Origin: Neorhizobium alkalisoli
GTDB lineage: Bacteria; Pseudomonadota; Alphaproteobacteria; Rhizobiales; Rhizobiaceae
DNA: 64,000 bases
Assembly: GCF_007829835.1 (NCBI RefSeq)
Contig: NZ_VIWP01000004.1
Span: forward strand, 623,340 to 687,339
Direction: 5' to 3'
Both the position numbers and the translations under genes were made by a program. Of this stretch, positions 808 through 60,691 are shown in pieces. The number at the start of each line of letters is the position of its first letter. The stretch's first letter is position 1. Below the pieces are notes generated by a model. It saw only the letters and a program-made list of their open reading frames with translations, did no database searches and had not been told where the DNA came from.

Positions 808-2337
808 ATGTCGCTTGCTTCTGCATTGTCCTCGGCTCAGTCGATCTTCACCAATACCGGCACGCAATCGTCGGTAACGTCGAAGAACATCGCCAACGCC
901 CAGAACCCCGACTACGTCCGCCGTTCGGCGGTCGTCGTCACCGGAGGCAACGGCGCCATGATCGGCGACACGGTGCGTTCAGCCAATCAGCCGCTGCTGC
1001 GGCAGACGCTGGAGAGCACTGCATCGTCCAGTGGTCAGCGTACGCTTCTGAACGGCCTTGAGGAGATCAAGAGCCTGATGGGCGGCAACGATTACGAATC
1101 GTCGCCGGCCACGCTTCTTGCTGCCTTCCGCAACAATCTGGATGCCTATTCGTCCAAGGCGAATGACAACGGTCTGGCCCTGGCGGTCGTTTCTAGCGCC
1201 CAGGACGTAGTGACCTCGCTCAACTCGGCGTCCAATCAGTTGCAGTCGATCCGCAAGCGCGCGGATGACAGCATTCAGGAAAATGTCAGCGATCTCAACA
1301 CGCTGCTTTCCAAGTTCCAGGACGCCAACGATCAGGTCAAGAACCTGACGGCGACCGGCGGTGACCCGAACGACGCGCTCGACACGCGTGACAGCCTGCT
1401 GAAGCAGATCTCCGAAATCGTCGGCGTTTCGTCCTATACACGCACCAATAACGACATGGTTCTCTACACTTCGGATGGCACGATGCTGTTCGAAGGCGTC
1501 GCCCGCAAGGTGACGTTCCAGCCGACTTCGAGCTATGACGCGAGCACCGTCGGCAACGCGGTCTATATCGATGGCGTCCAGCTCAAGGCCGGCACGAATG
1601 GCGACACGAGCGCCAAGGGTTCGCTTGCCTCCTATCTGCAGCTGCGCGACGATATCGCTCCGACTTTCCAGGGCCAGCTTGACGAAATCGCGCGCGGCCT
1701 GATCACCTCCTTCGCGGAAACCGATCCGAACGATCCGGCTACGCTGGATCCAGCACCGGGCCTGTTCACCTGGACCGATGGCGGCGTGCAGCAGACAACG
1801 GTTCCGGACGGCGTCGAATTTGTCGATAACGACGGCGACGGCGTGGACGAAACTCCGGTTTCGGGTTCGGCGACTGTTGCCGGTCTTGCTTCGCGCATCA
1901 AGGTCAATCCGGCAGTCGTGCCGCCGGCCGGCAGCACCGATCTGATCCGCGATGGCGGCATCAACGGCACCGATTATGTCGTCAATACCGATGGCGGCAG
2001 CAGCTACAGCGATCTGCTCGACAAGTACAATCAGGCGCTTGAGGATCCGATGGCATTCGATCCCAGCACCCAGATCGCCGACTCGTCGAACCTCATGTCC
2101 CTGGCATCGAACTCGGTCGGCTGGCTCGAACAGCTTCGCAGCTCCGCCACCACCGCTGACGAAACCAAATATGCCATGCTGACGCGCAGCGTAGAAGCCT
2201 ATTCCAGCGAAACCGGTGTCAGCCTCGACGAGGAACTGTCCCTGCTTCTGGATATCGAACAGTCCTACAAGGCAGGAGCCAAGCTCATGTCGACGGTGGA
2301 CGAAATGATGAAAGCCCTGATGGACATCGCGAGCTGA
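808..2337 (+). CDS. flgK: Flagellar hook-associated protein 1 FlgK
   Basis: FlgK is the first hook-filament junction protein. The 509-residue product begins with the axial-protein N-terminal helix containing NIANAQNPDYVRR, the FlgK/FlgE type of rod-box motif. It ends with the matching C-terminal helix (LDEELSLLLDIEQSYKAGAK, then TVDEMMKAL). The middle (about residues 100-420) is the variable D2/D3 region and is rich in Asp, Thr and Gly. The ATG at 808 has only a weak AAAAGG-like upstream element. The stop is two bases before the flgL start, so the two junction proteins are probably translationally coupled. Confidence 0.95.
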   Translation: MSLASALSSAQSIFTNTGTQSSVTSKNIANAQNPDYVRRSAVVVTGGNGAMIGDTVRSANQPLLRQTLESTASSSGQRTLLNGLEEIKSLMGGNDYESSPATLLAAFRNNLDAYSSKANDNGLALAVVSSAQDVVTSLNSASNQLQSIRKRADDSIQENVSDLNTLLSKFQDANDQVKNLTATGGDPNDALDTRDSLLKQISEIVGVSSYTRTNNDMVLYTSDGTMLFEGVARKVTFQPTSSYDASTVGNAVYIDGVQLKAGTNGDTSAKGSLASYLQLRDDIAPTFQGQLDEIARGLITSFAETDPNDPATLDPAPGLFTWTDGGVQQTTVPDGVEFVDNDGDGVDETPVSGSATVAGLASRIKVNPAVVPPAGSTDLIRDGGINGTDYVVNTDGGSSYSDLLDKYNQALEDPMAFDPSTQIADSSNLMSLASNSVGWLEQLRSSATTADETKYAMLTRSVEAYSSETGVSLDEELSLLLDIEQSYKAGAKLMSTVDEMMKALMDIAS

Positions 2338-2339
2338 TC

Positions 2340-3437
2340 ATGAAGACCTCATTCATCTCCTCCATGTCGGTCCAGACCACGATGCGCAACTCGATTGCGA
2401 GTGCGCAGCGCGATCTCGTCGATGCCAATACCGAAGCCGTCAGCGGTCGTTATGCGGATATCGGCGCCCAGCTCGGCGCCAGCACATCGCGCGCTCTGGA
2501 TCTCACCCGGGACATTTCGCGCATCGACAGCCTTTACAGCACGGCAGCACTCGCGACCCAGCGGCTGGACAGCGCCGAACTTTCGCTCTCCAATATCAAC
2601 GATCTCACGACCGAGATGCAGAATGCCATTCTGACGCTCGGCGGCACTTCGGACGAGACGAGCCTTTCGACGGCGCGCACGACGATGAGCTCCGCGCTCG
2701 ATGCATTTACCGGATTTGTGAACACCGCCGTTAACGGGGAATACATCTTTTCGGGCATCAATACCGATGTGAAGCCGATGAACGACCTTCTGTCGGACGA
2801 TTCCAAGGCGAAGAAGGCTTTCGACGACGAGCTGAACTGGTATATTGCCGACAAGGGCATTGGTTCGAAGGAAGCAATGACGGCCGATGACATGACTGAC
2901 TTCCTGGCTGACATGGAAGAGAAGTTCAACGGCACGAAGCTCATGGAAGCGCCCGAGAACGTCGATGATAACGGCGATCCCGTCGATTTCTGGTCGACTT
3001 ACGTCTCGAACGCGACCGACGAAAACATGAAGAGCCGCATCAGCCCGACTGAAGTGGTGGACACGTCGACCAATGCCAACAGCAAGGGCATGCGCTATTT
3101 TGCATTGTCCGCCATGGTCGCGACCACCTTCATGCAGACCGGCATGAGCAATGAAGCCCGCGGTGTCGTTGCCGAACAGACGCGCAGCTACATCAGCCAG
3201 GCTTCAAGCGGCATAAACCAGCAGCGGACGACGATTGGTGTTGCCACCGAACGCGTATCCAAGGCTGAGGAAAGCTTGCAGGCGCAAAAAGATATTCTGA
3301 CGACTCACTTGGGCAGTCTTGAGAATGTCGACGCGGCCGAGGCCGCCACGCGTGTCAACACGCTACAGACGCTTCTTGAAACTGCCTACTCGGTGACGGC
3401 GAAGATACAGAACCTGAGTTTGGTTAACTACCTTTGA
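2340..3437 (+). CDS. flgL: Flagellar hook-associated protein 3 FlgL
   Basis: FlgL is the second junction protein linking hook to filament. The 365-residue product has flagellin-type coiled ends: an N-terminal segment (SMSVQTTMRNSIASAQRDL, then VDANTEAVSGR) and a C-terminal helix (AATRVNTLQTLLETAYSVTA). No signal peptide is present, as expected for a type III exported protein. The ATG lies two bases after the flgK stop. The last codons and stop fall inside the 5' arm of a hairpin that precedes flaF. Confidence 0.93.
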   Translation: MKTSFISSMSVQTTMRNSIASAQRDLVDANTEAVSGRYADIGAQLGASTSRALDLTRDISRIDSLYSTAALATQRLDSAELSLSNINDLTTEMQNAILTLGGTSDETSLSTARTTMSSALDAFTGFVNTAVNGEYIFSGINTDVKPMNDLLSDDSKAKKAFDDELNWYIADKGIGSKEAMTADDMTDFLADMEEKFNGTKLMEAPENVDDNGDPVDFWSTYVSNATDENMKSRISPTEVVDTSTNANSKGMRYFALSAMVATTFMQTGMSNEARGVVAEQTRSYISQASSGINQQRTTIGVATERVSKAEESLQAQKDILTTHLGSLENVDAAEAATRVNTLQTLLETAYSVTAKIQNLSLVNYL

Positions 3438-3451
3438 TGACAAAGGGTAGT
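3427..3451 (+). promoter_or_regulatory. Hairpin over the flgL stop, before flaF
   Basis: ACTACC-TTTG (3427-3436) pairs with CAAA-GGGTAGT (3441-3451) across an ATGA loop, with one bulged base. The flgL stop codon (3435-3437) is inside the structure. No T-run follows, so this is more likely an intercistronic processing or stability hairpin than a terminator. The function is inferred. Confidence 0.45.
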
Positions 3452-3475
3452 CGAATGAAAATGAAGGATACATGA

Positions 3476-3823
3476 ATGTACCAGTTTTCATATGCCGAGA
3501 TCATGGAGGATGGCGTCGCAGACGCCAAGGAACGTGAACGGCAGGCGCTTGATCGATCGATCGAGCTGCTCGTCGCGGCGCAGAGAGAAGCGAATTACTC
3601 TCGCGTTACGATCGAAGCACTTTTTTACACCCGGCGCGTCTGGATCAGGTTCATTGAGGACCTGAAGCAGCCGGACAATGAACTGGCCATGGAACTGCGG
3701 GCTGACCTTATCTCGATCGCGATCTGGATTCTGAAAGAATGCGAGAAGATCAGGAAACGTGAAGCAGCCAATTTCCAGGGCATCATCGACGTGACCACCA
3801 TCATCAGGGATGGACTTAAATGA
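3476..3823 (+). CDS. flaF: Flagellar biosynthesis regulator FlaF
   Basis: FlaF is a small alphaproteobacterial protein that acts with FlbT to control flagellin synthesis and secretion; in Caulobacter it promotes flagellin translation. The 115-residue product begins [20 protein letters not shown] and is mainly helical, with the typical [18 protein letters not shown] core. It has no membrane segment. The stop overlaps the start of flbT (ATGA), so the antagonistic pair is translationally coupled. The assignment rests on family pattern plus the flaF-flbT neighbourhood. Confidence 0.93.
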
Positions 3824-4269
3824 AAAGTACGCTTCGTATCTCTCTGAAATCCGGCGAGCGGATCTTCATCAATGGCGCGGTTCTGCGCGTTGATCGCAAG
3901 GTCGCCCTGGAATTCCTCAACGACGTCACGTTCCTCTTGGAAAATCACGTATTGCAGCCGGAAGACGCGACCACGCCTCTCCGCCAGCTCTATTTCATCG
4001 CCCAGATGATGCTGATCAACCCCGAGGGCAAGGAACAGTCGATGACGCTGTTCCGCAAGTCGGTCGCCATGCTTCTGACCTGCTTCCAGGACGAGGAAGT
4101 CCTGGCCGAACTGAAGCGGGTCGACGGCATGGTTGCCTCCGGACGCGCCTTTGACGCGCTCAAGGCAATCCGCGGCCTCTACACGATTGAAGACCGGATC
4201 CTCAACAACCACGAAATCACGCCGGCTACGGTCGAGCAGATTCGCAAGGAGATCGCCCCATGGCGGTAG
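3820..4269 (+). CDS. flbT: Flagellin translational regulator FlbT
   Basis: FlbT is the alphaproteobacterial post-transcriptional flagellin regulator; in Caulobacter it binds the 5' leader of flagellin mRNA and couples synthesis to hook completion. The 149-residue product shows the family opening [20 protein letters not shown] and a helical C-terminal half. It overlaps flaF by 4 bases and flgD by 10 bases, so flaF-flbT-flgD are tightly coupled. Confidence 0.94.
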
Positions 4270-4721
4270 ACGCAATCAACTCCGCGACCAACCCCTATGC
4301 GTCCGGCAGCAGCACCACGTCGACTGCCGACTCCTCGGCAGCATCGCTGAACTACGACAACTTCATCCAGCTCTTGATCGCGCAGATGAAGAACCAGGAT
4401 CCGACCGATCCGATGGATGCTACCGAACAGGTTTCGCAGCTCGCCACCTTCTCGCAGGTCGAGCAATCGGTTAAGATGAATACGAATCTGTCGTCGCTGA
4501 TTCAGGCAAATTCGTTCTCCCAGGCATCGGACATGGTCGGCAAGACGATCACCAGCGCCGATGACAAGGTTACCGGCGTCGTGAAGGAAGTTGAAGTTTA
4601 CACCGATGGTCTGGTCGCCATCACCCAGGCGGGTGACAAGGTCCTGATCCAGCCGGGTATCATCATCTCCAACGGGACGTCGTCGAGCGATACGAGCACT
4701 GACAGCGACAGCAGCAGCTGA
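4260..4721 (+). CDS. flgD: Flagellar hook capping protein FlgD (short form)
   Basis: FlgD forms the transient cap that lets FlgE subunits assemble. The 153-residue product has the conserved N-terminal FlgD core: [20 protein letters not shown] followed by [18 protein letters not shown]. It stops after about 120 structured residues and ends in an Asp/Ser/Thr tail ([13 protein letters not shown]). The C-terminal beta domains of enterobacterial FlgD (about 230 residues) are missing; short forms are usual in rhizobia. It overlaps the end of flbT. Confidence 0.93.
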
Positions 4722-4756
4722 TCGTTAGAAGACGCAAATGCACTGGAGTGGCCGCA

Positions 4757-5023
4757 ATGAATGAGGCCGATGCCCTTGATATTCTGAGGGCCGCAATCTG
4801 GACTATTCTCATGGCCTGTGGTCCGGCCGTCATGGTTGCCATGGTGGTCGGTCTTGCAATCGCGCTGATCCAGGCGCTGACGCAGATCCAGGAGATGACG
4901 CTGACCTTCGTCCCGAAGATCGTTGCGATCATGGTGACGGTGGCCGTGACCGCCCCCTTTATCGGCGGCCAGATCAACCTCTTCGCCAATCTGGTGTTTT
5001 CCCGCGTACAATCCGGCTTCTAG
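4757..5023 (+). CDS. fliQ: Flagellar export gate protein FliQ
   Basis: FliQ is one of the integral membrane components of the type III export gate. The 88-residue product has two hydrophobic helices (about residues 16-40 and 53-75) separated by the conserved stretch LTQIQEMTLTFVPKI. I chose ATG 4757 over the in-frame GTG 4748 because TGGAG at 4744-4748 is 8 bases upstream and the family normally starts MNEADALD. It lies 35 bases after flgD. Confidence 0.94.
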   Translation: MNEADALDILRAAIWTILMACGPAVMVAMVVGLAIALIQALTQIQEMTLTFVPKIVAIMVTVAVTAPFIGGQINLFANLVFSRVQSGF

Positions 5024-5044
5024 GGCGCTTTTTCGAAGGCGCCC
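5023..5044 (+). promoter_or_regulatory. UUCG-loop hairpin between fliQ and flhA
   Basis: GGGCGCTTT (5023-5031) pairs with AAGGCGCCC (5036-5044) across a TTCG tetraloop, with one G.T pair. It begins on the last base of the fliQ stop. No T-run follows, so it may mark mRNA processing or partial termination in the 139-base fliQ-flhA gap rather than a strong terminator. Confidence 0.5.
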
Positions 5045-5162
5045 TTCGCCTTTACCGCCAGCGCGATCATGCCACCCTCGCGCAAGCTTCATGCTCTAGT
5101 CTCGACAGCGAACCGGCGGGATAAACTCCGCCGCCTTCTCATGAAGAGACGGACGAGTAGCC

Positions 5163-7250
5163 ATGGCGCAACCACCTGCATTACCGATTCCTAAGTCGGC
5201 CCCGAGCGGCCGCGATATTGGCTTTGCCACTGGCATTATCGCCATCCTCTGCATCCTCTTCCTGCCGATACCGTCATTCCTGATCGATATCGGCCTGGCC
5301 TTCTCGATCGCCCTCTCGGTGCTGATCCTGATGGTCGCCTTGTGGATTCAGCGGCCGCTGGAATTCTCGTCCTTCCCGACCATCCTGCTGATCGCGACCA
5401 TGGTGCGCCTGTCGCTCAATATCGCGACGACGCGCGTCATCCTTTCGCACGGCAATGAAGGTCATGGTGCAGCCGGTCACGTGATCTCCGGCTTCTCCAG
5501 CCTCGTCATGTCGGGCGACTTCGTGATCGGTGTGATCGTCTTCATGATCCTGGTCACGGTCAATTTCATCGTCATCACCAAGGGTGCCACGCGTATCGCG
5601 GAAGTCGGCGCCCGCTTCACCCTCGACGCCATCCCCGGCAAGCAGATGTCGATCGACGCCGACCTCTCGGCCGGCATGATCGACGAGAAGGAAGCCCGTC
5701 GCCGCCGTTCAGAACTGGAGGAAGAATCATCCTTCTTCGGTGCCATGGACGGTGCGTCGAAATTCGTGCGCGGCGATGCCGTCGCCGGCCTCATCATCAC
5801 CGCCATCAACGTTTTCGGCGGCATCATCATCGGTTACTTCCGCCACGGCATGCCGATCGGCGAAGCAGCCGACGTTTTCGTCAAACTGTCCGTCGGTGAC
5901 GGTATCGTCACGCAGATCCCGGCTCTGATCGTTTCGCTCGCAGCCGGCCTTCTCGTCACCCGTGGCGGCACGTCCGGTTCCACCGACAAGGCCGTTGTCG
6001 ATCAGCTCGCCGGTTATCCGAAGGCGCTCTGGATGGCTGCCGGCCTGATGGGCATGTTGTCGATCATTCCGGGCCTGCCCTTCGTGCCGTTCATGGGACT
6101 TTGCGGCATGCTCAGCTTTGCTGCATGGGCTGTTCCGCGCCGTGTCGAGGCCGAAAACAAGGCTCGCCGCGAGGAAGAGGAAAAGAAGGTCGTTCAGACC
6201 AAGGAATCCGAAAAGGAATCGGTCAAGTCGGTTCTCAAGACTTCCGAGATCGAGCTTGCGCTTGGCAAGCAGGTTTCCACCCGTCTGCTCGGCGCCCATC
6301 AGGAACTGGCCTTCCGCGTCGGCAAGATGCGCAAGAAGTTCGCGAGCCAGTACGGTTTCGTGGTTCCGGAAATCAAGGTCGCCGACGATATCGCGATTGC
6401 CGAGAAGTCTTATCAGATCCGTATCCACGGCACGACGATCGCCTCGAACAACCTGCGCGTCGGCGACGTTCTGGTCGTCACCGGTTCCGGCCGCAAGCCG
6501 AGCATTCCGGGCGACGAGATCCGCGAACCCGCTTTCGGCATGCCGGCCGTCTCGATCCTCGAGACCTTTGCCGAAGACCTGAAGCGCGAAGGCTTCCACC
6601 CGATCGACAACGTCTCGGTCGTGCTGACCCACCTGTCGGAAGTCATCCGCAACAACCTGCCGCAGCTTCTCTCCTACAAGGACGTGAAGATCCTGATCGA
6701 ACGTCTCGATCCGGAATACAAGAAGCTGGCCGACGAGATCTGCTCGTCGCACATGTCCTATTCCGGCCTGCAGGCTGTTTTGAAACTGCTCCTTGCCGAG
6801 CGCGTCTCGATCCGCAACCTGCATCTCATTCTCGAAGCCGTCGCCGAACTTGCGCCGCATGTGCGCAAGACAGAGCAGATCGTCGAACACGTGCGTGTCC
6901 GCATGTCGCAGCAGCTCTGCGGCGATCTGGCCGACAATGGCGTGCTGCGCGTCCTGCGTCTTGGCAGCAAGTGGGATATGCTGTTCCACCAGGCCCTCAA
7001 GCGCGATGCCAAGGGCGAAGTGGTTGAGTTCGACATCGACCCGCGCACGCTGGAAGAGTTTTCCGAACAGGCGACCAAAGTTATCCGTGAATTCATGGAC
7101 CGCGGCCTGCCTTTCGTTCTTGTCACCTCGCCGGAAACGCGCTCCTATGTCCGCATGATCATCGAGCGCCTGTTCGCGACGCTGCCGGTGCTCTCCCATG
7201 TGGAACTCGCGAAGGGTCTGGAAATCAAGATCCTGGGTGCCATCTCGTGA
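5163..7250 (+). CDS. flhA: Flagellar export apparatus protein FlhA
   Basis: FlhA is the large export-gate subunit that docks chaperone-substrate complexes and uses the proton-motive force. The 695-residue product matches the family length. The N-terminal half (about residues 20-325) contains some eight membrane helices and the FHIPEP signature region ([20 protein letters not shown], then [13 protein letters not shown]). A Lys/Glu-rich linker (about 330-360) leads to the cytoplasmic domain. The ATG follows a 139-base gap after fliQ. fliR begins 28 bases after the stop. Confidence 0.96.
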
Positions 7251-7278
7251 TATCCCGTCCTTGAGGGGACATTTTCGA

Positions 7279-8031
7279 ATGCTGACCGATCCCCAGGGAA
7301 GTGTACTGGCGCTGTTTCTGACGTTCTGCCGGATCGGCAGCTGCATCATGGTCCTTCCCGGCTTCAGCAGCGCCCGCATCCCGGGCAATGTGCGCCTTCT
7401 CACCGCGATCGCCCTGTCGCTCGCGGTGCTTCCCGTTCTCTGGGACGTCGTTTATCCCAAGGCGACGGCGCCAGGCGCGACCTATATCGGCCTGATCTTC
7501 ACCGAAATGCTGGTCGGCGTCACCTATGGGCTGATCGCGCGTCTTTATACGCTCGGCCTGCAGTTCTCGGCGACGATCATCTCGACCGTCATCGGCCTCA
7601 CGGCGCCGGGTGGGCAGGACCTGCTGGAAGATACGAGCGAAAGCCAGCTCGTCAGCTTCCTGACGCTAAGCGGGCTCCTTATTCTTTTCATGATGGACTT
7701 CCATCATGTGGTGATCCACGCAATGATCGATTCCTATCAGACGACCCCGGTCGGCGCGTTGATCGATTCGCGCAAGATGCTGATCACGCTCACCGACACG
7801 CTGCGGGCCTCGACGATGATCATGCTGCGGCTGGCAAGCCCGTTTCTGATCTTCGGATTGATGTTCAACGTCGCGATCGGCATGGTCAACAAGATGGCGC
7901 CGCAGCTTCCGGTCTTCTTCATTTCGACGCCGCTCCTGCTTCTGGGCGGCCTGTTTCTGCTTTACCTTTCCGTTGCGGCGCTGATTACCCAGTATGCCAA
8001 CGGCTTCATTCCCATCTTCACGTCGTTCTAG
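7279..8031 (+). CDS. fliR: Flagellar export gate protein FliR
   Basis: FliR is the third core export-gate membrane protein beside FliP and FliQ. The 250-residue product has about six hydrophobic helices, beginning MLTDPQGSVLALFLTFCRIG and ending near ITQYANGFIPIFTSF. The frame is open from 7198 inside flhA, but GAGGGG at 7263-7268 sits 10 bases before ATG 7279, which gives the family length. It is co-transcribed with flhA. Confidence 0.94.
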   Translation: MLTDPQGSVLALFLTFCRIGSCIMVLPGFSSARIPGNVRLLTAIALSLAVLPVLWDVVYPKATAPGATYIGLIFTEMLVGVTYGLIARLYTLGLQFSATIISTVIGLTAPGGQDLLEDTSESQLVSFLTLSGLLILFMMDFHHVVIHAMIDSYQTTPVGALIDSRKMLITLTDTLRASTMIMLRLASPFLIFGLMFNVAIGMVNKMAPQLPVFFISTPLLLLGGLFLLYLSVAALITQYANGFIPIFTSF

Positions 8032-31502: not shown

Positions 31503-33374
31503 ATGGAGAGGGAGCCCGTTCACGCCATGAAGAGACTTCTGCCCATGAAGAAGATTTTGCCATCCTCGATCGTATCTCGAATTGTTATTCTGTGCCTGTT
31601 TCTGATCTCGATCGCTGTCGTCGCGGTCGGTGGTCTCGCCTATAACAATATCCGTCGCGACATTCTTGATACGGCCGGTGATGATACGCGCAAGGCCATG
31701 CGCACCATGGCTCTTCTTTACGAACTGGAATTGCCGGGCGCCAAGGCAGAGCTGCGCGAGCAGGTCGTAACCGGCATCGTCAAGGGCGAGGGTGCCCTCA
31801 AGGATCATGACCTCGTCGATCGTGCCGCCAGCGCAATCGGCGGCGTTGCGACCGTCTTCGAAAAGCAGGGCAGCGATTACGTCCGCGTTTCGACCAATGT
31901 GAAGACGGAAAAGGGCGACCGCGCCGTCGGCACCAAGCTTGCCGCAGAACATCCGGCTCAGCCGCTTCTCGCCAAGGGGCAGCCCTTCTTCGGCGCCGCC
32001 GTCCTGTTCGGCAAGGACTACATGACCGGCTATTTCCCGATCAAGGATGGCGCCGGTGCCGTGACCGGCGTGCTCTTCGTCGGCATTCCGATGCAGGTCT
32101 ATTTCGCCCATATCAATTCGGCCGGTTTCGTCGTCATTGCCAGCTCGCTGGCGGCGCTTCTCGTCATTGCATTCCTGAGCTTCTTCGCGATCCGCGCCCT
32201 GATCCGTCCGCTCGGTGTCCTGACCAATACCGTCCGCGCCATCTCGCAAGGCGATAACGACGCGACCATTCTTTACCTCGATCACCAGAACGAGTTCGGC
32301 AACATTGCCCGTGCACTTGCCGGCTTCCGCGACAGCGCTCGCGAAAAGCAGGAAATCGAAGCCCGCAGCGCCGCCGAACGGGCGGAGGCAGAAGCCGAGC
32401 GCGAGCGCAACGATGTCGAAAAGCAGCTCGTCGACCGCCATATCGATCATGCCGTCAGCGAACTCGGCTCTGCTCTGTCGCGCCTCGCCCAGGGCGATCT
32501 GACGACCACGATCGAAAGCACCTTTGCCGGCCGGCTTGAACAGCTGCGCAAGGATTTTAACGGCTCGATCGTCCGCCTGCGCGACACGCTCTCCCACATC
32601 CGCACCAGCACGCTGTCGATCCAGAAGAGCAGTGCCGATCTCAGCCATTCCTCGAGCGAACTGTCGCGCCGCACCGAAAGCCAGGCCGCATCGCTGGAAG
32701 AAACCGCTGCCGCCGTCGACGAAATCACGGTCACGGTCCGCTCCTCTGCCGAGCGTGCGCGCGAAGCCAATGACGCGGTGTCGCTGACGAAGAAGAGCGC
32801 CGATAGCTCCGGCACGGTCGTCAAGAACGCCGTCGAGGCCATGGACCGCATCGAGGACGCTTCCCAGAAGATTGAGCTGATCATCGAAGTCATCGATGAC
32901 ATCGCCTTCCAGACCAATCTGCTGGCGCTGAATGCCGGTATCGAGGCCGCTCGCGCCGGTGAGGCCGGCAAGGGTTTTGCCGTCGTGGCACAGGAAGTCC
33001 GCGAACTGGCACAGCGCTCCGCCGGTGCCGCCAAGGAGATCAAGGATCTCATCAACCAGTCGTCCCGCGAAGTCTCCTCCGGTGCATCGCTGGTGCAACA
33101 GGCCGGCGAGGTTCTGGCGACGATCAGCCACGACATCACCGCGATCAGCAAGCATGTCGAGACGATTTCCACTGCCAGCCAGGACCAGTCCGCGGCACTG
33201 CAGGAGATCAACAGCTCGGTCAACCGCATGGACCAGATGACCCAGCAGAACGGCGCCATGGTCGGCGAAACCAGCGAGGCCTGCCGTCGTCTGGCCGAAG
33301 AGGCGGATGGCCTGCTCGGCCTCGTCCAGCAGTTCCGCATCGAGGAAAGCTTCCGCCGGTCGCGAGCCGCCTGA
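31503..33374 (+). CDS. Methyl-accepting chemotaxis protein with periplasmic Cache-type sensor
   Basis: This is a 623-residue inner-membrane chemoreceptor. TM1 (about residues 22-45) is followed by a periplasmic sensor region of about 155 residues (motifs [20 protein letters not shown] and [20 protein letters not shown], like single Cache sensors). TM2 (about 202-225), a HAMP domain, a second HAMP-like segment (about 322-365) and the signalling hairpin ([20 protein letters not shown], about 463-482) follow. There is no CheR-tethering pentapeptide at the C-terminus. The start is uncertain: ATG 31503, 31527 or 31545. It should feed the CheA pathway controlling the flagella. Confidence 0.93.
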
Positions 33375-33408: not shown

Positions 33409-33431
33409 ACGGGGGCGCAAGGCGCCCCCGT
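33409..33431. terminator. Hairpin between convergent chemoreceptor and methyltransferase genes
   Basis: ACGGGGGCGC (33409-33418) and GCGCCCCCGT (33422-33431) form a perfect 10-bp stem with a 3-base loop, centred between the two convergent stops. The T-run is weak on both sides, but position and stability suggest a bidirectional terminator. Confidence 0.7.
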
Positions 33432-33455: not shown

Positions 33456-35348
33456 TCAGGCTGCGCCGCTGCGCTGACCGAGCAGCGTTGCGATCTGCTC
33501 GTCCTTCTCGCGCAGCTGGCGATGGGCTTCACCAAGCTTCGCTTCCAGCGAGCGATTGAACTCGCTCACCTTCGTGCGCATCTGGTCGGTTGCCTCGGCG
33601 ATCTGCTTTAGCTCTTCGTCACGGGTCTTCAGCGCCCGTTCCAGCTGCATCATCATCGACACGGGTGTAATCCGCGGCGGCAGTTTTTTGCCCAGAACAG
33701 CCAGATTGCCGCTGATCTGCTTGCCATGCACGGCCGACTGGAAGCGGTATTCCTCGGCGAAATAACGCATGACGTCGTCTTCGTTCATCGACAGGCCAAG
33801 GTAACGGGCCATGCTCAGCAGCAGCGCTCCGACTTCACGCGGTGTGTCCGCGGCGGGATTGCCACAGCTGCTGACGCCGAGGATCGCATCATAGAGCGAA
33901 CGGAACAGGATATAGCCCGCCTCGACCTCACCCTCGCGGCACCATTCCTGGTCGATGAAATTCGTGCTTCCGTCAGCGGCGACGAGGAGGTTGCGGGGCG
34001 AGGCATCGAGATGGACGCCGGAGACCAGCGTGCGATGTTCGATCCTGGCGGATGCATCGCCGTTGCTGACCTGCTTCTTGAAGGCATCCCACCATACCTT
34101 CACCCAGACTCCGGTTTCATCTGCAGTCCAGCCATCCTTCATCATGATATAGCGAAGCTCTTCGCGCCAGGTCAGGCCTGCGTAAAGCGGCTCGCGCCCG
34201 AGAGCGAGCTTGAAGTGACGTGCTTCTGAGGATTTGGCCACGGCGTCCGGATAGGTCTTGCGTCGCTCGACGTAATAACCGCTCTCTTCCTTGCCGAATT
34301 CGACGGTCTTCTTGAACGCGGGATCACGCGGGCCGCCATAATGGAAACCGATCGCCGTCGGCTTGGCGATGTCCTTTGCCGAGGCCATCAGCACGAAGGA
34401 ATTGGCAAGCTCGTCAACCAGGTTGTTGCGCACGATCGCCTTCCAGGCGAAGTCCATCGAGAAATAGGGCAGTCTCGGGGCCTGCTTGTCGGTGGCGCAG
34501 GCGCCGCTGATCATGCTGGTGAAATCCGCCGGCACTTCGTCCTTCAGGGCTTCGTCCGAAAGAACCGAAACCGGGAGCTTGTAGTCGGGGAAGGGGTACC
34601 ACCATTCGTGCTTGTCGAGGCCGACATTGGCCATGCGCTCGCCCAGTTCCTTCTTGCCGAAGGTGACGGCGGACGTTGCCGTGTAGCGGCTCTCGATGCC
34701 GGCCATCGGCTGGCCGATATGGTCTTCCGGGAAACCGGCGAAATATTTGAGGCCGATCTGGTTCTCGATCGCGATGACGAGCACGCCGTCCGGCTCGAGA
34801 AGCGATGTCACCTTCTTCAGCATCATGTCGATCGGATCTTCGATGCTGGAGCGGTCGTAGAACATGCGGGCATATTCAAGAACGCCGATCAGGGTGATGG
34901 TCTTGAATTTCTGGCCGATATCGAAATTCTGGAACGGGTCGGCAACGAAATTGACATTGGGAAGGTCCTGGCAGCGGGCGGCGCCGATGGCGGCGCGGCG
35001 CGGGCTTCCCTCGACGGCAACGACGTCAAAGCCCTGTTCGCCCAGGAACCGGGAAATGGCGCCACAGCCCGAGCCGATTTCGAGGATCGGACCTTCCAGT
35101 CGGTCGGCGATCGGACGCAGCACGTTCGCGCGTTCCGAAGAGAGATGGTAGAGTGTTGCCCAGTCGCGAATGGCGTCCTGCAGCTCGCCCGAGGTTACAG
35201 ACTTGTCCTTTGCACCGCGGATGACACGAAAAATGTGGTTTTCGGTCTGATCGCCGTCGGAATAGCCAAAGCTGGCGCTCTGTCCCGGCCTGGCCCAGGT
35301 GTTGGTCTCGGCATTATACTGGTACTGGGAGCTAAGCGCAGTCTTCAT
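33456..35348 (-). CDS. Methyltransferase / kinase-like / coiled-coil fusion (WbdD-like architecture)
   Basis: The 630-residue product shows three parts. The first is a class I SAM methyltransferase (about residues 60-215; motif I ILEIGSGCGAISRFLG, then VVAVEGSP). The second is a region with kinase-type catalytic signatures (about 290-520): HxDxxxxN as H446/D448/N453 in GVHLDASPRNLLV, then D466/E468 in NFIDQEW, as in aminoglycoside-phosphotransferase-like and ABC1-like kinases. The third is a C-terminal coiled coil (about 562-625). This order matches WbdD, which caps O-antigen chains and measures their length. The start at 35348 is preferred (AGAGG 7 bases upstream). No wzm/wzt or glycosyltransferase genes are adjacent, so the role is inferred. 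Confidence 0.8.
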   Translation of the reverse strand: MKTALSSQYQYNAETNTWARPGQSASFGYSDGDQTENHIFRVIRGAKDKSVTSGELQDAIRDWATLYHLSSERANVLRPIADRLEGPILEIGSGCGAISRFLGEQGFDVVAVEGSPRRAAIGAARCQDLPNVNFVADPFQNFDIGQKFKTITLIGVLEYARMFYDRSSIEDPIDMMLKKVTSLLEPDGVLVIAIENQIGLKYFAGFPEDHIGQPMAGIESRYTATSAVTFGKKELGERMANVGLDKHEWWYPFPDYKLPVSVLSDEALKDEVPADFTSMISGACATDKQAPRLPYFSMDFAWKAIVRNNLVDELANSFVLMASAKDIAKPTAIGFHYGGPRDPAFKKTVEFGKEESGYYVERRKTYPDAVAKSSEARHFKLALGREPLYAGLTWREELRYIMMKDGWTADETGVWVKVWWDAFKKQVSNGDASARIEHRTLVSGVHLDASPRNLLVAADGSTNFIDQEWCREGEVEAGYILFRSLYDAILGVSSCGNPAADTPREVGALLLSMARYLGLSMNEDDVMRYFAEEYRFQSAVHGKQISGNLAVLGKKLPPRITPVSMMMQLERALKTRDEELKQIAEATDQMRTKVSEFNRSLEAKLGEAHRQLREKDEQIATLLGQRSGAA

Positions 35349-35667: not shown

Positions 35668-36765
35668 ATGAAACGCCATTTGCTGAGCCTCGTTGCTGCA
35701 TTTGCCGCAACGGCCTTCGGTGCTGTCACCGCTTCCGCGCAGGAGCGCCAGGTCCATGTCTACAACTGGTCCGATTATATCGATGAATCGATCCTGACCG
35801 ACTTCACCAAGGAAACCGGCATCAAGGTCGTCTACGACGTATTCGACAGCAACGACCTGCTCGAGACCAAGCTGCTCGCAGGTGGTTCTGGTTATGACGT
35901 CGTCGTCCCGACCGGCCCGTTCCTTGCCCGTCAGATCCAGGCTGGCGTCTTCCAGAAGCTCGACAAGTCCAAGCTGCCGAACCTTTCCAACATGTGGCCG
36001 CAGATCTCCGAGCGTCTCGCCAAGTATGATCCCGGCAACCAGTATGCCGTCAATTACATGTGGGGCACGACCGGCATCGGCTACAATGTCGACAAGGTCA
36101 AGAAGGCGCTCGGTGACGTGCCGATCGACAGCTGGGACGTTCTCTTCAAGCCGGAAAACGCCAAGAAGCTGAAGTCCTGCGGCGTCAACATCCTCGATGC
36201 CTCCGACGAAACCTTCGCGATCGGCATGAATTATGTCGGCAAGAACCCCGACAGCAAGGAAACCAAGGATCTCGAAGCCGGCGGCAAGGTCTATTCCGCC
36301 ATCCGTTCCTCGGCCAAGACCTTCAACTCTGCCGCCTATATCGACGATCTCGCCAATGGCGACATCTGCATCACGATCGGCTGGTCAGGCGACGTTCTCC
36401 AGGCAAAGACCCGCGCCGAGGAAGCCAAGAACGGCGTCAATATCGAGTTCGTCATCCCCAAGGAAGGCACGTATATGTGGTTCGACAACCTCGCGATCCC
36501 GGCGGATGCGAAGAATGTCGACGAGGCACATGCCTTCATCAACTACCTGATGAAGCCGGAAGTCATCGCCAAGGCCTCCAACTATGTCCAGTATGCGAAC
36601 GGCAACCTTGCCTCGCAGAAGTTCATCGACAAGGACGTGCTGGACAACCCGAATGTCTATCCGCCGGAAGACGTGGTGAAGAAGCTCTTCACCATCTCGC
36701 CCTACGGCCCCAAGGAACAGCGTGTGCTGAACCGGCTCTGGACCCAGATCAAGACCGGCAAGTAA
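35668..36765 (+). CDS. potF: Polyamine ABC transporter, periplasmic binding protein PotF
   Basis: The 365-residue product has a signal peptide (about residues 1-25, cleavage after ASA) and a PotF/PotD-type ligand-binding body. Conserved putrescine-site elements include VHVYNWSDYIDE near the mature N-terminus, SGYDVVVPTGPF and TIGWSGDVLQAK. CAGGAGAG precedes the ATG. It is the first gene of potFGHI, downstream of the polyamine-degrading puuA/puuB pair, so uptake and breakdown are neighbours. Confidence 0.94.
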   Translation: MKRHLLSLVAAFAATAFGAVTASAQERQVHVYNWSDYIDESILTDFTKETGIKVVYDVFDSNDLLETKLLAGGSGYDVVVPTGPFLARQIQAGVFQKLDKSKLPNLSNMWPQISERLAKYDPGNQYAVNYMWGTTGIGYNVDKVKKALGDVPIDSWDVLFKPENAKKLKSCGVNILDASDETFAIGMNYVGKNPDSKETKDLEAGGKVYSAIRSSAKTFNSAAYIDDLANGDICITIGWSGDVLQAKTRAEEAKNGVNIEFVIPKEGTYMWFDNLAIPADAKNVDEAHAFINYLMKPEVIAKASNYVQYANGNLASQKFIDKDVLDNPNVYPPEDVVKKLFTISPYGPKEQRVLNRLWTQIKTGK

Positions 36766-44040: not shown

Positions 44041-47000
44041 TTACGTCGCAAGCACCCGCGGCGATGGGAAGGTGATCTCGACCAGCGTGCCTTCATTGGG
44101 TGCCGAGCTGATCGCAAAGGCGGCGCGGTTTGCATCCACCATTGCCTTGGTCAGCGGCAGGCCAAGCCCGGTGCCGTCGCCCCGCTTGCGGGCAGCGCCT
44201 GCGACCTGACGGAACGGTTTCATGGCCAGTTCCAGCTCGGACCGCGTCATGCCGATCCCCGTATCCCGCACCCGCAAGACGACATTGCCGTTTGGCTCAT
44301 AGGCGCTCGAAACCACGATCTGCCCGCCGGATGGCGTGAAGCGGATGGCGTTCGACAGGATGTTGAGCACGATCTGCTTGATCGAGCGAAGATCCGCAAC
44401 CACGGGCGGCACCGCCTGCGACAGCGCCGTGCGGATGATAACCCGCTGGCTGTTCGCCTGCGGCTGCACCAGTGACACGGCCTCAGACACGGTCTCGTTA
44501 AGGCCGACAGAGGTGAAATCCATCTCCATCTCGCCCGCCTCGATCTTGGAAATGTCGAGCAGGTCGTTGACGATGTCGAGGACGTGGCGACCGGAGCGGC
44601 CGATATCGTTGGAATATTCGACATAACGCGGATGGCCGATCGGGCCGAAGCGCTCACCCGCCATCATGTCGGCAAAACCGATAATGGCGTTCAGCGGCGT
44701 GCGGATTTCGTGGCTGACATGCGCCAGGAATTCGCTCTTGTGCGCATTGGCCGTCTCGGCGGCACGTTTGGCGGTGCGCAATTCGTCTTCGGTGCGCTTC
44801 CACTGCGTGATGTCGCGGATGACGGCGCAATAACCGTTCGACGAGGTGAGCTTGCCGATCGTCATGAACAGCGGCAGGAAACCGCCGGAAGCCTCGCGGC
44901 CGATCACTTCGCGCCCGTCGTTCAGGACGCTTGCAACACCATGGCCTGAAAGGCCGGAGAGGTAATCGATGATCGCCCTCTGGCTTTCATGCGCGAACAG
45001 CATGACGAAGGGTTTGCCGTTGATTTCGTCGTCATCGTAATTGAACAGGGCGCTGGCGGCACGGTTCATCGAGCGCACTTCGCCGCTCGCATCGATGATC
45101 ACGACGCCATCGGTCGCCGTTTCGAGAATGGCGCGCAGCTCTTCGACTTCCACCTGGAGCCGGGCCAGCTGGTCTGCCGGCCGGTTGTTGCGGAAGGGAA
45201 TGATCTCTGCCTGGCCATCGGCCTCGACCGGGCCTGCCGCTTCCGTCTCGGAGGCGATCGGCATCAATACCAGCATCAGCGCGCTGTTATCGCCCCAGCG
45301 GACGGATTGCAGCTTGGCAGTGACCGGCAGGATGTCGTCATTCGCCTTGACGACGACCATGCTGCCGGCTCCCGACGTCTTGTCGTCGAGGTCCTGCCGC
45401 TGCAACAGCGCATCGAGCCCGCCGACCGCATCGAGTTCCTCGAGCGACGCATAACCGGTCAGTTTCAAAAATTCCGGATTGCCGTGAATGAGCGTGTCGC
45501 CGCTATGGACCAGCAGTGCCACCGGCATCTGGTCGACGATATCGGCCGAAAGCCCGATGCGCTCACGGATCGGAAGCATGGTCTGCAGCAGCTCGCGATC
45601 GCTGAGATGCGAATGTGCATCATCATCTGTTGGTGTTGCGGACAGAGGCTCAGTTTCGGCCTTCTGAATCTCTTCTTCTGCCGGGATTTCGTTCTGTTCG
45701 GTCAAATCTTGCTCGTCGGTCACAACCGGCTCGTCCTCGGGCGCTGCAGGCAGATCTTCCGCAGCCTCGGGCTCAGCCGCGGCCTCGGATTCGATCGCTG
45801 CCGCGCCGGAATGGGCATCCACCGCTGCGATTTCTTCTGCCGGCGCGTCTTCGACGACCGGATCGACGCTCTCGGCAACGGGATGGCCATCAGCCTGTTC
45901 GGAAACGGTGTTTTGGTCTTCCGATAGCTCCGACTCATCCTGCTGATCCGCTGAAACCGCGACTTCGACGTCCTGCTCCGGAGATGTCTGGTCCGGTGTG
46001 GCAACTGCCTCGTTCACAGCTTCTGTCGACGCTTCGGTAGCGTCAGCCGCGATCGGCGACACGTCCGCAGTGCTGGCATCGTCAGTCGCCACAATATTCT
46101 GCGCGGAACCCACGGCTGCGGCATCCTGTGTTGCTGCGGCATTATCCTCGCCGCCGACAAAACGGTCGAGCTGCCGGGCGATCTCGCGGAATGCGGCCTG
46201 CTCGACGGGCGTCAGGCGGGTCCGGTGTTCCTCGAGCTGAATGATCTTGTCCGATTGGCGGCGGCCCGGATTGTCGACGAGCCTTAGCGCTGGCCGCTCG
46301 CCGTTCGGCCAGTCGGTCGCCGGATTGAGCGGCAGTGTCGGGGCAGGGGCTTCGTCCTGACCTTGCGTTTCGGCGGCGAAATCATCCGCCTCATCGTTCT
46401 CTGCAACGATCTCGTCGTGCGTCTCGTCGGCAATGCCTTCGACGGGCTCTGAGTAGCCTGTAGCGAGCGTGTCATATGCCTTGTCGATAAAGGCAATTTC
46501 TTCGGCCTTATCCGCCGTTATGCTGTTAGTGGCTTGCTCGTCGGCTTCCACCGTGTCCAGCTCGTCATCCGCGGCAAAATCTTCCGTCGCAGACGGCACG
46601 AGCGACAGGCCGATCGCATGCGGATCTTCCGCCGCATCGGCAATCCGCACGATGCCGAAGCCTCGAAAACCATCGAATTCACGGCTGCGGGTATAGGTCG
46701 GCAGGGCGGCGAGATCGACGGGCACGATCAGTGAGGTGCCCTCGACCGGCCACCAGATGGTCTTGCCGGACCAGGTGTCGCGCTTGTTGAGAAGCTCGAT
46801 GATCCGGCCTTCGGGATCGAGATGGAAGAGCGCGGCCATATCGGAAAAGGCCATGCCGATGATATCGGCCGCATGCGGACCGACCGTCGCCGCGAATTCG
46901 CTCGAAACCTCGGTAAAATGCCCGGTGGCATCGATTTTCCAGACGAAACGCGTCGCCCGCGCCTCGCTGCGGAACGAGAAATTTTCGGTGTCCGATGGTG

Positions 47001-48204
47001 CGTCGACTGCGCTGGCGGTCGCCGCATGGAGAGGTTCGTCGGCGGGAACCGCTTGCGGCTCCGGCGCTGCCGGTTCCACGAATGCCACATCCGCATCTGC
47101 GTCAAGCGCCGTCTCTTCGTCCTCTGGCGAAACCGTCGGGATCAACGCCGATGAATCTTCTTCGCCAGGCGCAGCGGGCTCTTCCGCCATCAGCGAAATC
47201 GCCTCTTCTTCCAGCTCCGGCGCGGTCTCGTCGGATATCGGCAGCTCCGCGCTCTCGTTTTCCGCTTCTGCCGTCACCGCTTCGGTTGCGTTGGAAACGT
47301 CAGCTTCAGTCTGACCGACATCATTTGCACTATCCGCTTCAGCCGGTGCCGGGGCTTCCTCGTCGAACAGCGAAATTTCGTCCTGCTGTTCCGGCGCTTC
47401 CTCGATCTCGGCAATTGCGTCGAGAGCTTCTGTTTCACCACCATTCTCTGGCGGCAGAACCACGGCATTTTCCGAAACCGCGTCAACCACAACCGGAGCG
47501 GCGGAGACAGGCTCGGGCACCTGCGCCGAAGGAATGTCGTCCTCGGCCATATCCACGGTGAAAAGCAGGAAGAAGGCCGGGTCGTCCGCAAGCTTGCCCA
47601 TCGCGGCCGGCAGGTAGCCCTTGACCGTCGAGATCGGCCGCTTGGCGAGCCGGCTCGGATCACCGTCCGCCATGGCAGACAGCATGCCGATCGTTTGCTG
47701 CGAGATGTCGAGTTCGGCAAAGCGCGCGGAAGCCGCGATCACCTTGCCCGTCTTGTCGAACACCGCCATGTAGGTATCGGGGTCTTCGAAACCCTCGATC
47801 ATCCGGGCGGCGCAGATTTCCGGCGAGGTGCCGGACTGCGCGGTCGCCGCGGAAAACAGGACTGCGCGCTCGCCGGAAATTTCCACGAGCTCGCAGACGC
47901 CCTGGATGATCACGCGCTGGAAACCGGAGGTGACACGCACGACGACGTTACGGGTATCACCCGTCCGTGCCAGCTGTCGTGCCGTCGCCTCGATCTGGCG
48001 GAAAGCCACGTCGTTGCGGTTCGGGCCCTGGTCGATGAAATCGTAGATCGAGCTGAAGCCGAACAGGCCGGCGCCCTGGCCATTGGCCCAGAGCGGGTAG
48101 CGCATGTCGGAGGAGAAAAGCACCATTCCTTCGCCCGCCGAAAAGCGTGCCCGGACGCGCTCGTTTACGGCAATGTCGATGAACGGATACTGGACTGCGG
48201 ACAT
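44041..48204 (-). CDS. PdhS-like PAS sensor histidine kinase with acidic linkers
   Basis: This is a 1387-residue cytoplasmic kinase. PAS-like regions are recognisable near about 380-520 and 1000-1130 (ILETATDGVVIIDASGEVRS). The H-box HVSHEIRTPLNAIIGFADMM puts the phospho-acceptor at H1165. The N-box (N1285 in ILSNAIRFTP), DTGIGM and GDGTGLGLPL follow. The H-box neighbourhood (ERFGPIGHPRYVEY) is typical of the PleC/DivJ/PdhS group that controls DivK and hence CtrA. Two long Ala/Glu/Asp-rich blocks (about 225-400 and 560-890) separate the domains. A CtrA box lies 42 bases upstream of the start. The target is inferred. Confidence 0.87.
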   Translation of the reverse strand: MSAVQYPFIDIAVNERVRARFSAGEGMVLFSSDMRYPLWANGQGAGLFGFSSIYDFIDQGPNRNDVAFRQIEATARQLARTGDTRNVVVRVTSGFQRVIIQGVCELVEISGERAVLFSAATAQSGTSPEICAARMIEGFEDPDTYMAVFDKTGKVIAASARFAELDISQQTIGMLSAMADGDPSRLAKRPISTVKGYLPAAMGKLADDPAFFLLFTVDMAEDDIPSAQVPEPVSAAPVVVDAVSENAVVLPPENGGETEALDAIAEIEEAPEQQDEISLFDEEAPAPAEADSANDVGQTEADVSNATEAVTAEAENESAELPISDETAPELEEEAISLMAEEPAAPGEEDSSALIPTVSPEDEETALDADADVAFVEPAAPEPQAVPADEPLHAATASAVDAPSDTENFSFRSEARATRFVWKIDATGHFTEVSSEFAATVGPHAADIIGMAFSDMAALFHLDPEGRIIELLNKRDTWSGKTIWWPVEGTSLIVPVDLAALPTYTRSREFDGFRGFGIVRIADAAEDPHAIGLSLVPSATEDFAADDELDTVEADEQATNSITADKAEEIAFIDKAYDTLATGYSEPVEGIADETHDEIVAENDEADDFAAETQGQDEAPAPTLPLNPATDWPNGERPALRLVDNPGRRQSDKIIQLEEHRTRLTPVEQAAFREIARQLDRFVGGEDNAAATQDAAAVGSAQNIVATDDASTADVSPIAADATEASTEAVNEAVATPDQTSPEQDVEVAVSADQQDESELSEDQNTVSEQADGHPVAESVDPVVEDAPAEEIAAVDAHSGAAAIESEAAAEPEAAEDLPAAPEDEPVVTDEQDLTEQNEIPAEEEIQKAETEPLSATPTDDDAHSHLSDRELLQTMLPIRERIGLSADIVDQMPVALLVHSGDTLIHGNPEFLKLTGYASLEELDAVGGLDALLQRQDLDDKTSGAGSMVVVKANDDILPVTAKLQSVRWGDNSALMLVLMPIASETEAAGPVEADGQAEIIPFRNNRPADQLARLQVEVEELRAILETATDGVVIIDASGEVRSMNRAASALFNYDDDEINGKPFVMLFAHESQRAIIDYLSGLSGHGVASVLNDGREVIGREASGGFLPLFMTIGKLTSSNGYCAVIRDITQWKRTEDELRTAKRAAETANAHKSEFLAHVSHEIRTPLNAIIGFADMMAGERFGPIGHPRYVEYSNDIGRSGRHVLDIVNDLLDISKIEAGEMEMDFTSVGLNETVSEAVSLVQPQANSQRVIIRTALSQAVPPVVADLRSIKQIVLNILSNAIRFTPSGGQIVVSSAYEPNGNVVLRVRDTGIGMTRSELELAMKPFRQVAGAARKRGDGTGLGLPLTKAMVDANRAAFAISSAPNEGTLVEITFPSPRVLAT

Positions 48205-59024: not shown

Positions 59025-59057
59025 GCAACACCAGATAGACCAGCTTTCGTGCGGCGG

Positions 59058-60305: not shown

Positions 60306-60508
60306 GCAAATTCCACTCTCGTTTTATCGTCGAGACCGGAGCATGCAGCCCGTCCTGTCGCGGTGCAATGGAAAAATCCGGTACGGCTATGGAATCCCTA
60401 TTTCTTCGCGCGCCGCTTCCAATCGAATGCCTATGCGTCCCTCGTTACCTTTGTCTCCAGGTATCCGCGATTTCAGCCGGAACCGAAGACCGACAAAGGA
60501 GTGATCTC

Positions 60509-60691
60509 ATGCCCGCTCGTATGGGAAGCGTCTATCTCTTGCACCTTGCCGAAGCGCTGGCCCAGCGCCGCCGGCTGGCCCGCAGCCAGCCCTATCACCG
60601 CACCGAGAACCTCGGCATGTTTCTGCGCCTGTTCGGTGTGCTGGGCGTCGGCGTGACCGGCCTCTGCCTTCTCGTTCTGTCGCTCGGTTGA
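60509..60691 (+). CDS. Small membrane protein, 60 residues
   Basis: The product has a basic N-terminal half (LAEALAQRRRLARSQPYHRT) and one C-terminal membrane helix (LFGVLGVGVTGLCLLVLSLG). AAGGAG lies about 8 bases before ATG 60509. It is the first of three small genes ahead of the kdp locus. No family is recognised. Confidence 0.6.
   Translation: MPARMGSVYLLHLAEALAQRRRLARSQPYHRTENLGMFLRLFGVLGVGVTGLCLLVLSLG

Follow-up and report, generated by a model that had tools for sequence, protein, structure and literature searches.

Genomic setting of the gene

The stretch of Neorhizobium alkalisoli DNA analysed here, 64 000 nucleotides long and referred to as the window (G000:C4:623340-687339, contig C4 of the strain's genome G000), carries a whole gene for an O7-type methyltransferase-kinase of 630 residues at 33456..35348 on the minus strand, with the ATG at 35348 and the stop codon included; the longest open reading frame starts at 35366. 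The gene is intact, and the initial annotation's observation of a methyltransferase, kinase-like and coiled-coil protein at this locus is real. Frame 1 of the plus strand contains two stops across the same interval, and plus-strand ORFs of 167 and 382 residues overlap the gene. A terminator-like hairpin (ten pairs, nine of them GC) lies 3' of the gene at 33409..33431 on the minus strand; it is a consensus match only, and three such hairpins were found in the region against 2.6 expected. A promoter-like site for the gene was looked for and none was found.

The gene lies between two plus-strand genes. It is convergent with a gene for a methyl-accepting chemotaxis protein (MCP; 31503..33374, assigned by domain scan and synteny) and divergent from potF (35668..36765), which opens an ABC gene set of putrescine type extending to 39747. 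Elsewhere in the window a flagellar set spans 808..8031 on the plus strand and includes, by domain scan, a FlgK-type gene (808-2337), a gene for a flagellin-domain protein (2340-3437), an FlhA-type gene (5163-7250) and a FliR-type gene (7198-8031). The window has 107 ORFs of at least 150 residues, many of them overlapping; 49 different proteins were scanned, that of the gene itself included, and none matched a glycosyltransferase or polysaccharide-exporter family, in agreement with the initial annotation that the gene stands alone, away from glycosyltransferase and wzm/wzt genes.

The gene was found in two of the 57 genomes of the genus, its own included, one copy being intact and the other broken and adjoining transposase-like pieces, while PotF is present in all 57. 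At 30 potF loci, with about 1.5 kb visible upstream, the gene was seen at its own locus only. In four genomes (G255, G264, G281 and G286) the MCP gene directly precedes potF, which leaves no room for a methyltransferase-kinase gene; at the remaining 25 loci neither the MCP gene nor the methyltransferase-kinase gene is visible. Compared with the four sister genomes, the gene is a single-gene difference between the MCP gene and potF. Insertion is the simplest reading of this site, loss in the other genomes being the alternative. The gene is dispensable, because only these two genomes of the genus carry it and one of the copies is broken.

Domain architecture and predicted fold

A class I SAM methyltransferase domain at about residues 26-265 (34554..35273, minus strand) is identified by Pfam and by structure matches of a model of residues 25-326. 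The Pfam match is to Methyltransf_23 (residues 82-256, E = 1.9e-8), and methyltransferase families, in the same interval, are the only supported Pfam families in the protein. The SAM-binding loop, recognized from its sequence, is LEIGSGCGAI (residues 89-98, with G92 and G94; 35055..35084, minus strand). A kinase-like domain follows at about residues 315-553 (33690..34406, minus strand), with an APH/choline-kinase-like fold in the predicted model and no Pfam kinase match. The protein ends after a single C-terminal helix (residues 562-629; 33462..33665, minus strand), which is predicted to form a coiled coil from the model and a heptad test, the heptad contrast being equalled in 20 of 20 000 shuffles. 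The full-length AlphaFold2 model (54 aligned sequences; mean pLDDT of 94.1, pTM of 0.89) ends in this one helix of 68 residues, without a folded domain between it and the kinase. Pfam, the models and the heptad test thus bear out the domain order initially proposed.

No kinase match to the protein was obtained in Pfam, NCBIfam or PDB-sequence searches, and a Pfam kinase is absent from the 25 families listed for 54 family members (37 matched at E 0.1). A model of residues 262-630 alone (AlphaFold, pLDDT of 93.9) gave kinases as its top-ranking Foldseek matches, yet none of these reached E ≤ 0.001. A second structural aligner matched the same model to APH(3')-Ia (Z of 8.6, r.m.s.d. of 3.4, 156 aligned), the choline kinase LicA (Z of 8.4), APH(3')-IIIa (Z of 8.1) and the amicoumacin kinase AmiN (Z of 7.6, r.m.s.d. 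of 4.2, 174 aligned), a Z of 7.6 being within the aligner's range for a possible common arrangement. Nearly all of the 50 rows that it listed are titled kinase or phosphotransferase. That WbdD is not among these 50 rows shows nothing by itself. In the model, residues 262-630 appear to resemble aminoglycoside, choline and amicoumacin kinases, and the fold match is modest; the earlier suggestion that the region 290-520 is kinase-like survived this check. The main text of PMC11231755 gives AmiN, with a Z of 7.4, as the best DALI match of the kinase of ORF6 from Klebsiella pneumoniae O7 (ORF6-O7).

Family membership

A tblastn search of plasmid records returned two relatives, in Citrobacter braakii pF217-3 and Pseudomonas asturiensis pCC1524, each with genes for an ABC permease and ATPase immediately before it. 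A class-wide search gave matches in four of 240 genomes, the strain's own included, two of them to the methyltransferase part only. Two unannotated faecal 'phage' contigs also gave matches to the window protein at 27-31%. While a single-protein scan of genome contigs found no relatives, an alignment-based scan found 362, of which the best 80 were kept. The resulting alignment of relatives and window protein (P0001) has 83 rows; the 82 relatives are L002, L005, L006 and L009-L088 without L020. The rows dropped were L001 (the window's own locus), L003 and L004 (methyltransferase only), L007, L008 and L020 (the broken copy), and L085 was additionally left out of the tree.

At the 94 columns that are conserved at 90% or more in the 82 relatives, the window protein departs from the consensus once, with I198 for L. 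This retention of 93 of the 94 columns, the 630 open codons and a G+C content of 60% (GC3 of 76%) similar to that of the surroundings argue against a recently arrived or decaying orphan without present function, a reading that would suit the patchy distribution in the genus (one intact and one broken copy) and the single-gene difference at the site but that we consider quite improbable.

ORF6-O7 combines a methyltransferase with a kinase that has no sequence similarity to known kinases; in vitro it phosphorylated and methylated a mimic of the repeat unit, giving a methylphosphate terminator, and the D441A substitution abolished phosphorylation (main text of PMC11231755). Compared through the published residue numbers, its SAM-site residues Y28, Y66, G91, G93, E112 and Y158 correspond to Y29, Y67, G92, G94, E113 and Y159 of the window protein at identical spacing (offset +1), and its catalytic D441 corresponds to D448 (offset +7). 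All seven residues are present in 79 of 81 rows, five of which match every spacing. The N-terminal part of ORF6 thus shares with the window protein a methyltransferase, an AmiN-like unannotated kinase, a coiled coil and these seven residues. ORF6-O7 differs in having a CBM-like domain along with a pair of fused GT2 modules, and it is part of an ABC-exporter O-antigen system, as described in the same text (PMC11231755), whereas searches of the window's genome revealed no exporter.

The putative catalytic loop is D448-x-x-P-x-N453 (33990..34007, minus strand; D448 by analogy with D441 in PMC11231755). D448 and N453 are each conserved in all 82 rows with letters, whereas position 446 is variable (Y in 31 rows, L in 23, F in nine, A in five, C in four and H in three), so that the HxDxxxxN signature initially described reduces to its Asp and Asn. 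In the motif D466-x-E468-W469 (33942..33953, minus strand), which would form the metal site, D466 is found in 81 of 82 rows with letters and E468 in all 82. By this alignment DxE is the normal motif of the O7-type family, and the 'DQE rather than DFG' first noted as peculiar to this protein is family-wide. Aminoglycoside and choline kinases likewise have DxE in place of DFG.

In a quick IQ-TREE tree with SH-aLRT support only, the window protein groups with alphaproteobacterial and actinobacterial members (unstarred support of 87-90), none of which is adjacent to Wzm and Wzt genes. The closest relative among the best 80 of 362 is from Agrobacterium larrymoorei, at 44% identity. The coiled coil is common in the family, not universal, 23 of the 82 rows ending less than 50 residues after the kinase; 41 of the 82 lie in ORFs of at least 1000 residues, several of them joined to glycosyltransferase domains. 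From the aligned sequences, membership of the window protein in the O7-type (ORF6-O7-N) methyltransferase-kinase family can be inferred.

The Lcin_0519 family, reported from Legionella and 333 other species as a prediction without an assay, has the same order of methyltransferase, kinase and coiled coil; its authors describe it as 'clearly different, remotely related' to WbdD, call its kinase different from that of WbdD, and note that some of its neighbourhoods include Wzm, Wzt and a glycosyltransferase (by the account in PMC9758233). This Wzm-Wzt-enzyme-glycosyltransferase neighbourhood is seen in the Legionella locus L058 and, as far as the contig end, in L059; the window gene lacks it. Because these two Legionella loci, with the published Wzm-Wzt order, fall inside the same alignment and tree as the window protein, we infer that the Klebsiella ORF6-O7 and Legionella Lcin_0519 families are one, which would unite an assayed with a predicted family. 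The main text of PMC11231755 (2024) does not mention Legionella, and the two family names occur in two papers among the main texts searched, a literature without most subscription journals and preprints.

The initial annotation had recognized the plan of WbdD in this protein. The domain order stands, and a methylphosphate cap is the probable product of both enzymes, as far as WbdD of Escherichia coli O9a is described in PMC3482155, but the sequence relation does not hold. No WbdD chain was returned by phmmer (to E 1) or by PDB profile searches (to E 10), and membership of the WbdD family was rejected on this result in favour of the distinct ORF6-O7-type family. In a Foldseek search with the whole model, WbdD (4azs) ranked 34th (E = 1.8e-8, 11% identity, TM of 0.23/0.30), the kinase model is nearest to APH and choline kinases, and the helix of 68 residues compares with a WbdD C-terminal region that spans 460-708 (PMC3482155). 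NoeA/Lani_1194, also a methyltransferase-kinase fusion and present in rhizobia, is a separate family with another domain orientation, set apart here by the description in PMC9758233.

ABC exporters near the relatives and in the genome

A relative was classed as adjacent to an exporter where Wzm and Wzt matches (E < 1e-20) lay within 3.5 kb on either side. Of the 82 loci, 38 are beside both genes, four beside one, two far from them and 34 without either (in 14 of these 34 less than 5 kb is visible on one side), and four lie too close to the end of their contig; L002, from the same class as the window, is counted among these edge loci and outside the eight named alphaproteobacteria. The Wzm/Wzt pair at L088 is on the other strand. 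One group of 34 rows in the tree consists of 31 adjacent and three half-adjacent members. The co-occurrence with O-antigen loci for which the initial annotation proposed a search therefore holds for 38 of the 82 relatives but for none of the eight named alphaproteobacterial ones.

On the first reading of the gene, the enzyme would be a classical chain terminator or ruler of an ABC-exported O-antigen or capsule, like WbdD and ORF6-O7. The 38 adjacent loci are in line with this role, as are the Legionella and the Citrobacter and Pseudomonas plasmid members directly after wzm-wzt and the coiled coil of the window protein itself. So is the Ensifer locus L010, one of the eight named alphaproteobacterial ones, where a sugar cluster includes, 4.9 kb upstream, a short ABC ATPase with similarity to Wzt (3e-38); this ATPase also speaks against a clean split between exporter-linked and exporter-free members. 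The named alphaproteobacterial loci point the other way: besides the lack of adjacent Wzm and Wzt genes in all eight, seven of their genomes have no Wzt_C protein and the eighth (G308) has a sub-cutoff match only. The 49 window proteins scanned, with no polysaccharide family among them, also argue against such a role.

The genome of the strain, assembled in 40 contigs and scored as 100% complete, gave no match to a Wzm query or to a Wzt query (searches without controls of their own) and none to the Wzt_C family, which was positive in three of 14 control genomes. It encodes two ABC2_membrane (PF01061) proteins. For one of these permeases, homologues at E 1e-111 or better occur in a further eight alphaproteobacterial genomes, and the other lies among genes of PQQ/cytochrome type, as judged from sequence. 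A profile built from 38 Wzm proteins matched neither of the two. Its three strongest 'controls' belong to its training set; two Wzm-like proteins from outside that set are recovered at 3.6e-38 and 5e-52. Homologues of the strain's own C7 permease in other genomes match the profile weakly (1e-6 to 1e-9), as members of the same superfamily. A classical terminator coupled to an exporter is unlikely in this strain, since the genome searches revealed neither a Wzt_C protein nor a permease of Wzm type; with none of the eight alphaproteobacterial relatives adjacent to Wzm and Wzt either, we regard this reading as highly doubtful. What is retained of the surface-polysaccharide terminator first suggested is a likely glycan-capping role; its coupling to an ABC exporter of O-antigen is not favoured.

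Flagellin genes near the relatives and in the genome

A flagellin gene was found by a single phmmer query in 14 of the 34 exporter-free loci and in none of the 38 exporter-linked ones, a count that is inflated by near-copies (three lineages, the label needing five to six changes on the tree) and in which three of the 14 matches are backed by Pfam. The minor locus groups gave 0/4, 0/2 and 0/4. Five of the 14 loci are from Nitrospirales, eight from Methylophilaceae and one from Cellulomonas citrea, and the gap between the flagellin and the enzyme ORF is 0.6-7.4 kb. In the Methylophilus locus L037, a protein of 2493 residues carries TPR and GT41 parts ahead of the methyltransferase-kinase, and the same joined ORF occurs in five further Methylophilus loci. 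The Nitrospirales locus L030 contains, in this order, FlgK, an FlgL-like ORF (assigned from sequence), FliW, an enzyme ORF of 1548 residues, a GT9 and a further glycosyltransferase, with the flagellin after two more ORFs.

GT41 enzymes glycosylate proteins. In the strain's own genome, four flagellin genes at C4:610,089-616,155 have a GT41 gene (E = 4.8e-62) and a GT2 gene alongside, on the same contig and 41-51 kb before the methyltransferase-kinase gene. The four sister genomes, which lack the gene at the site, show synteny across the flagellar cluster. Two of the four have a GT41 among the flagellins (44% identity), each of the four has a less similar GT41 (35-37%) at least 14 kb away, and the GT2 of the flagellin set was found in none of the four sister stretches. 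Identity to the four sisters is 47-50% for FlgK, 57-59% for FliR and 37-68% for the flagellins (end pieces only), compared with 83-88% for FlhA, 75-81% for MCP and 90-93% for PotF. The pattern of divergence, from one strain against four, is compatible with a changed filament surface accompanying a gained enzyme.

These observations suggest that the enzyme may cap a glycan that is linked to flagellin and synthesized in the cytoplasm, for which an exporter would not be needed. The flagellin genes of three exporter-free lineages, the fusion to TPR-GT41 in Methylophilus, the place of the L030 enzyme ORF between flagellar genes on one side and glycosyltransferases and flagellin on the other, and the strain's own GT41-GT2 set and divergent FlgK and flagellins all favour this acceptor. 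However, none of the eight named alphaproteobacterial loci contains a flagellin gene, a distance of 41 kb does not make an operon, and two of the sisters have a GT41 beside their flagellins without the gene. We therefore treat a flagellin acceptor as a serious possibility that stops well short of probable.

Proposed function

We consider it likely that the window protein, encoded by a gene standing alone, belongs to the O7-type family and caps a non-reducing terminal sugar with methylphosphate, acting in trans. By analogy with the Klebsiella enzyme, the APH-like kinase would use ATP and the site formed by D448 and D466/E468 to place a phosphate on the sugar at the non-reducing end of a glycan, and the methyltransferase, as in ORF6-O7, would then methylate the terminal phosphate with SAM to give the methylphosphate cap. 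The coiled-coil helix would oligomerize the protein and may serve as a short spacer or docking rod. The acceptor in this strain would be a glycan made elsewhere and, as no ABC exporter was found, should be one that is completed in the cytoplasm or is exported in some other way. The most likely single acceptor, and the boldest, is a flagellin glycan, with a cluster of rhamnan type on contig C2 as the second candidate. We know of no biochemistry for any stand-alone alphaproteobacterial member. The distance to the closest relative, which is only 44% identical, the modest kinase fold match, the rarity of the gene in its genus and the negative search for a promoter-like site also count against the proposal.

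The enzyme family is known; what is unusual here is the orphan setting, and a family-wide connection to flagellin was not found described. In existing descriptions, such terminators belong to O-antigen machines that depend on an ABC exporter. It is conceivable, if not quite an even prospect, that the family has two careers, one on ABC-exported polysaccharides and one on flagellin glycans, and that the window enzyme is a detached member placing methylphosphate (+94 Da) on variant flagellins. A protein-linked glycan made in the cytoplasm would then need no exporter, an exporter-free member with flagellin-side relatives would mean that the same cap can be placed on glycoproteins, and methylphosphate would be predicted on flagella. 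There is a precedent for phospho-groups on flagellin glycans in Pseudomonas PAO1, where the flagellin deoxyhexose bears a methylated amino acid in phospho-linkage (as described in PMC11833859). The flagellins of Rhizobium leguminosarum give a glycoprotein stain, and the authors call them 'possibly glycosylated' (PMC2936354). In the literature searched, again without most subscription journals and preprints, no description was found of methylphosphate on flagella or of flagellin glycosylation with WbdD, the papers matched being about fish vaccination and Salmonella LPS, respectively. Among the literature matches listed, there was nothing specific on methylphosphate in Rhizobium, on a Shinella O-antigen or rhamnan, or on flagellin glycosylation with a methyltransferase or in Rhizobium.

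The second candidate acceptor is a rhamnan-like glycan of the C2 cluster in the strain's own genome, which comprises dTDP-rhamnose-type genes, RgpF-GT4-GT2 and TPR-GT2 proteins. In Methylobacterium indicum (L071), a gene 2.1 kb ahead of that for the relative encodes a homologue of the cluster's RgpF (852 bits), and an RgpF-type partner lies next to or is fused with the enzyme in A. larrymoorei, where the gene is away from exporters, in Ancylobacter and in the two Actinomycetes scanned. The cluster is, however, on a different contig from the gene and without a known exporter or product, and rhamnose genes are common, rfbA-type matches occurring also in 14 of the 38 exporter-linked loci; this acceptor is rather unlikely. 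An RTX-glycoprotein acceptor was dropped, an RTX gene being found in none of the 34 exporter-free loci against two of the 38 exporter-linked ones. In the strain's own genome, an RTX gene adjoins the C2 cluster.

Relatives of the methyltransferase-kinase

Among the 57 genomes of the genus, which include that of the window, the only further copy of the O7-type methyltransferase-kinase that we found is in Shinella sp. UYSO24 (loci L007 and L020). The frame of this copy is interrupted by stops, and transposase-like pieces adjoin it.

In open reading frames from Methylophilus (L037–L041 and L051), a GT41 glycosyltransferase and the methyltransferase-kinase form a single chain of approximately 2500 amino acids; for L037, TPR and GT41 domains were identified by Pfam. 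The enzyme type also occurs on a Citrobacter braakii plasmid that is typed as conjugative, in an O-antigen-type cluster lying amid insertion sequences (L005; NZ_CP136728.1, 82180–108000). This cluster holds dTDP-rhamnose genes, an ABC permease and ATPase, the O7-type enzyme and glycosyltransferases. A full-length relative is present in an archaeal bin, a metagenome-assembled Methanosarcina genome (L022), where it lies 2 kb from genes judged by sequence to be ribosomal-protein-like. Matches of 27–31% were found on two faecal contigs that bear a phage label (MT839147.1 and MT836085.1).

Other features of the window and its genome

A minus-strand gene at window 44041–48204 encodes a histidine kinase of 1387 residues, the PAS, HisKA and HATPase domains of which are confined to the last 370 residues; the first ~1000 residues match no Pfam family at an E-value of 1e-5. 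The 863-residue open frame on the plus strand at window 58065–60656 is probably spurious: it has no Pfam match and overlies genes for a glutamine synthetase and an FAD-oxidoreductase on the minus strand.

Compared with four sister genomes of the same genus, FlhA, MCP and PotF are far less divergent than FlgK, FliR and the flagellins (window 808–8031; C4:610089–616155 on the same contig). Judged from the divergence of the latter proteins, it is as if the filament genes of this strain had been exchanged.

Elsewhere in this genome, genes for TPR-GT2 and RgpF-GT glycosyltransferase proteins and dTDP-rhamnose-type genes adjoin a gene for a protein with an RTX/serralysin C-terminus (L170, 547–1545; L169, 9539–19899), which is possibly a glycosylated secreted protein.
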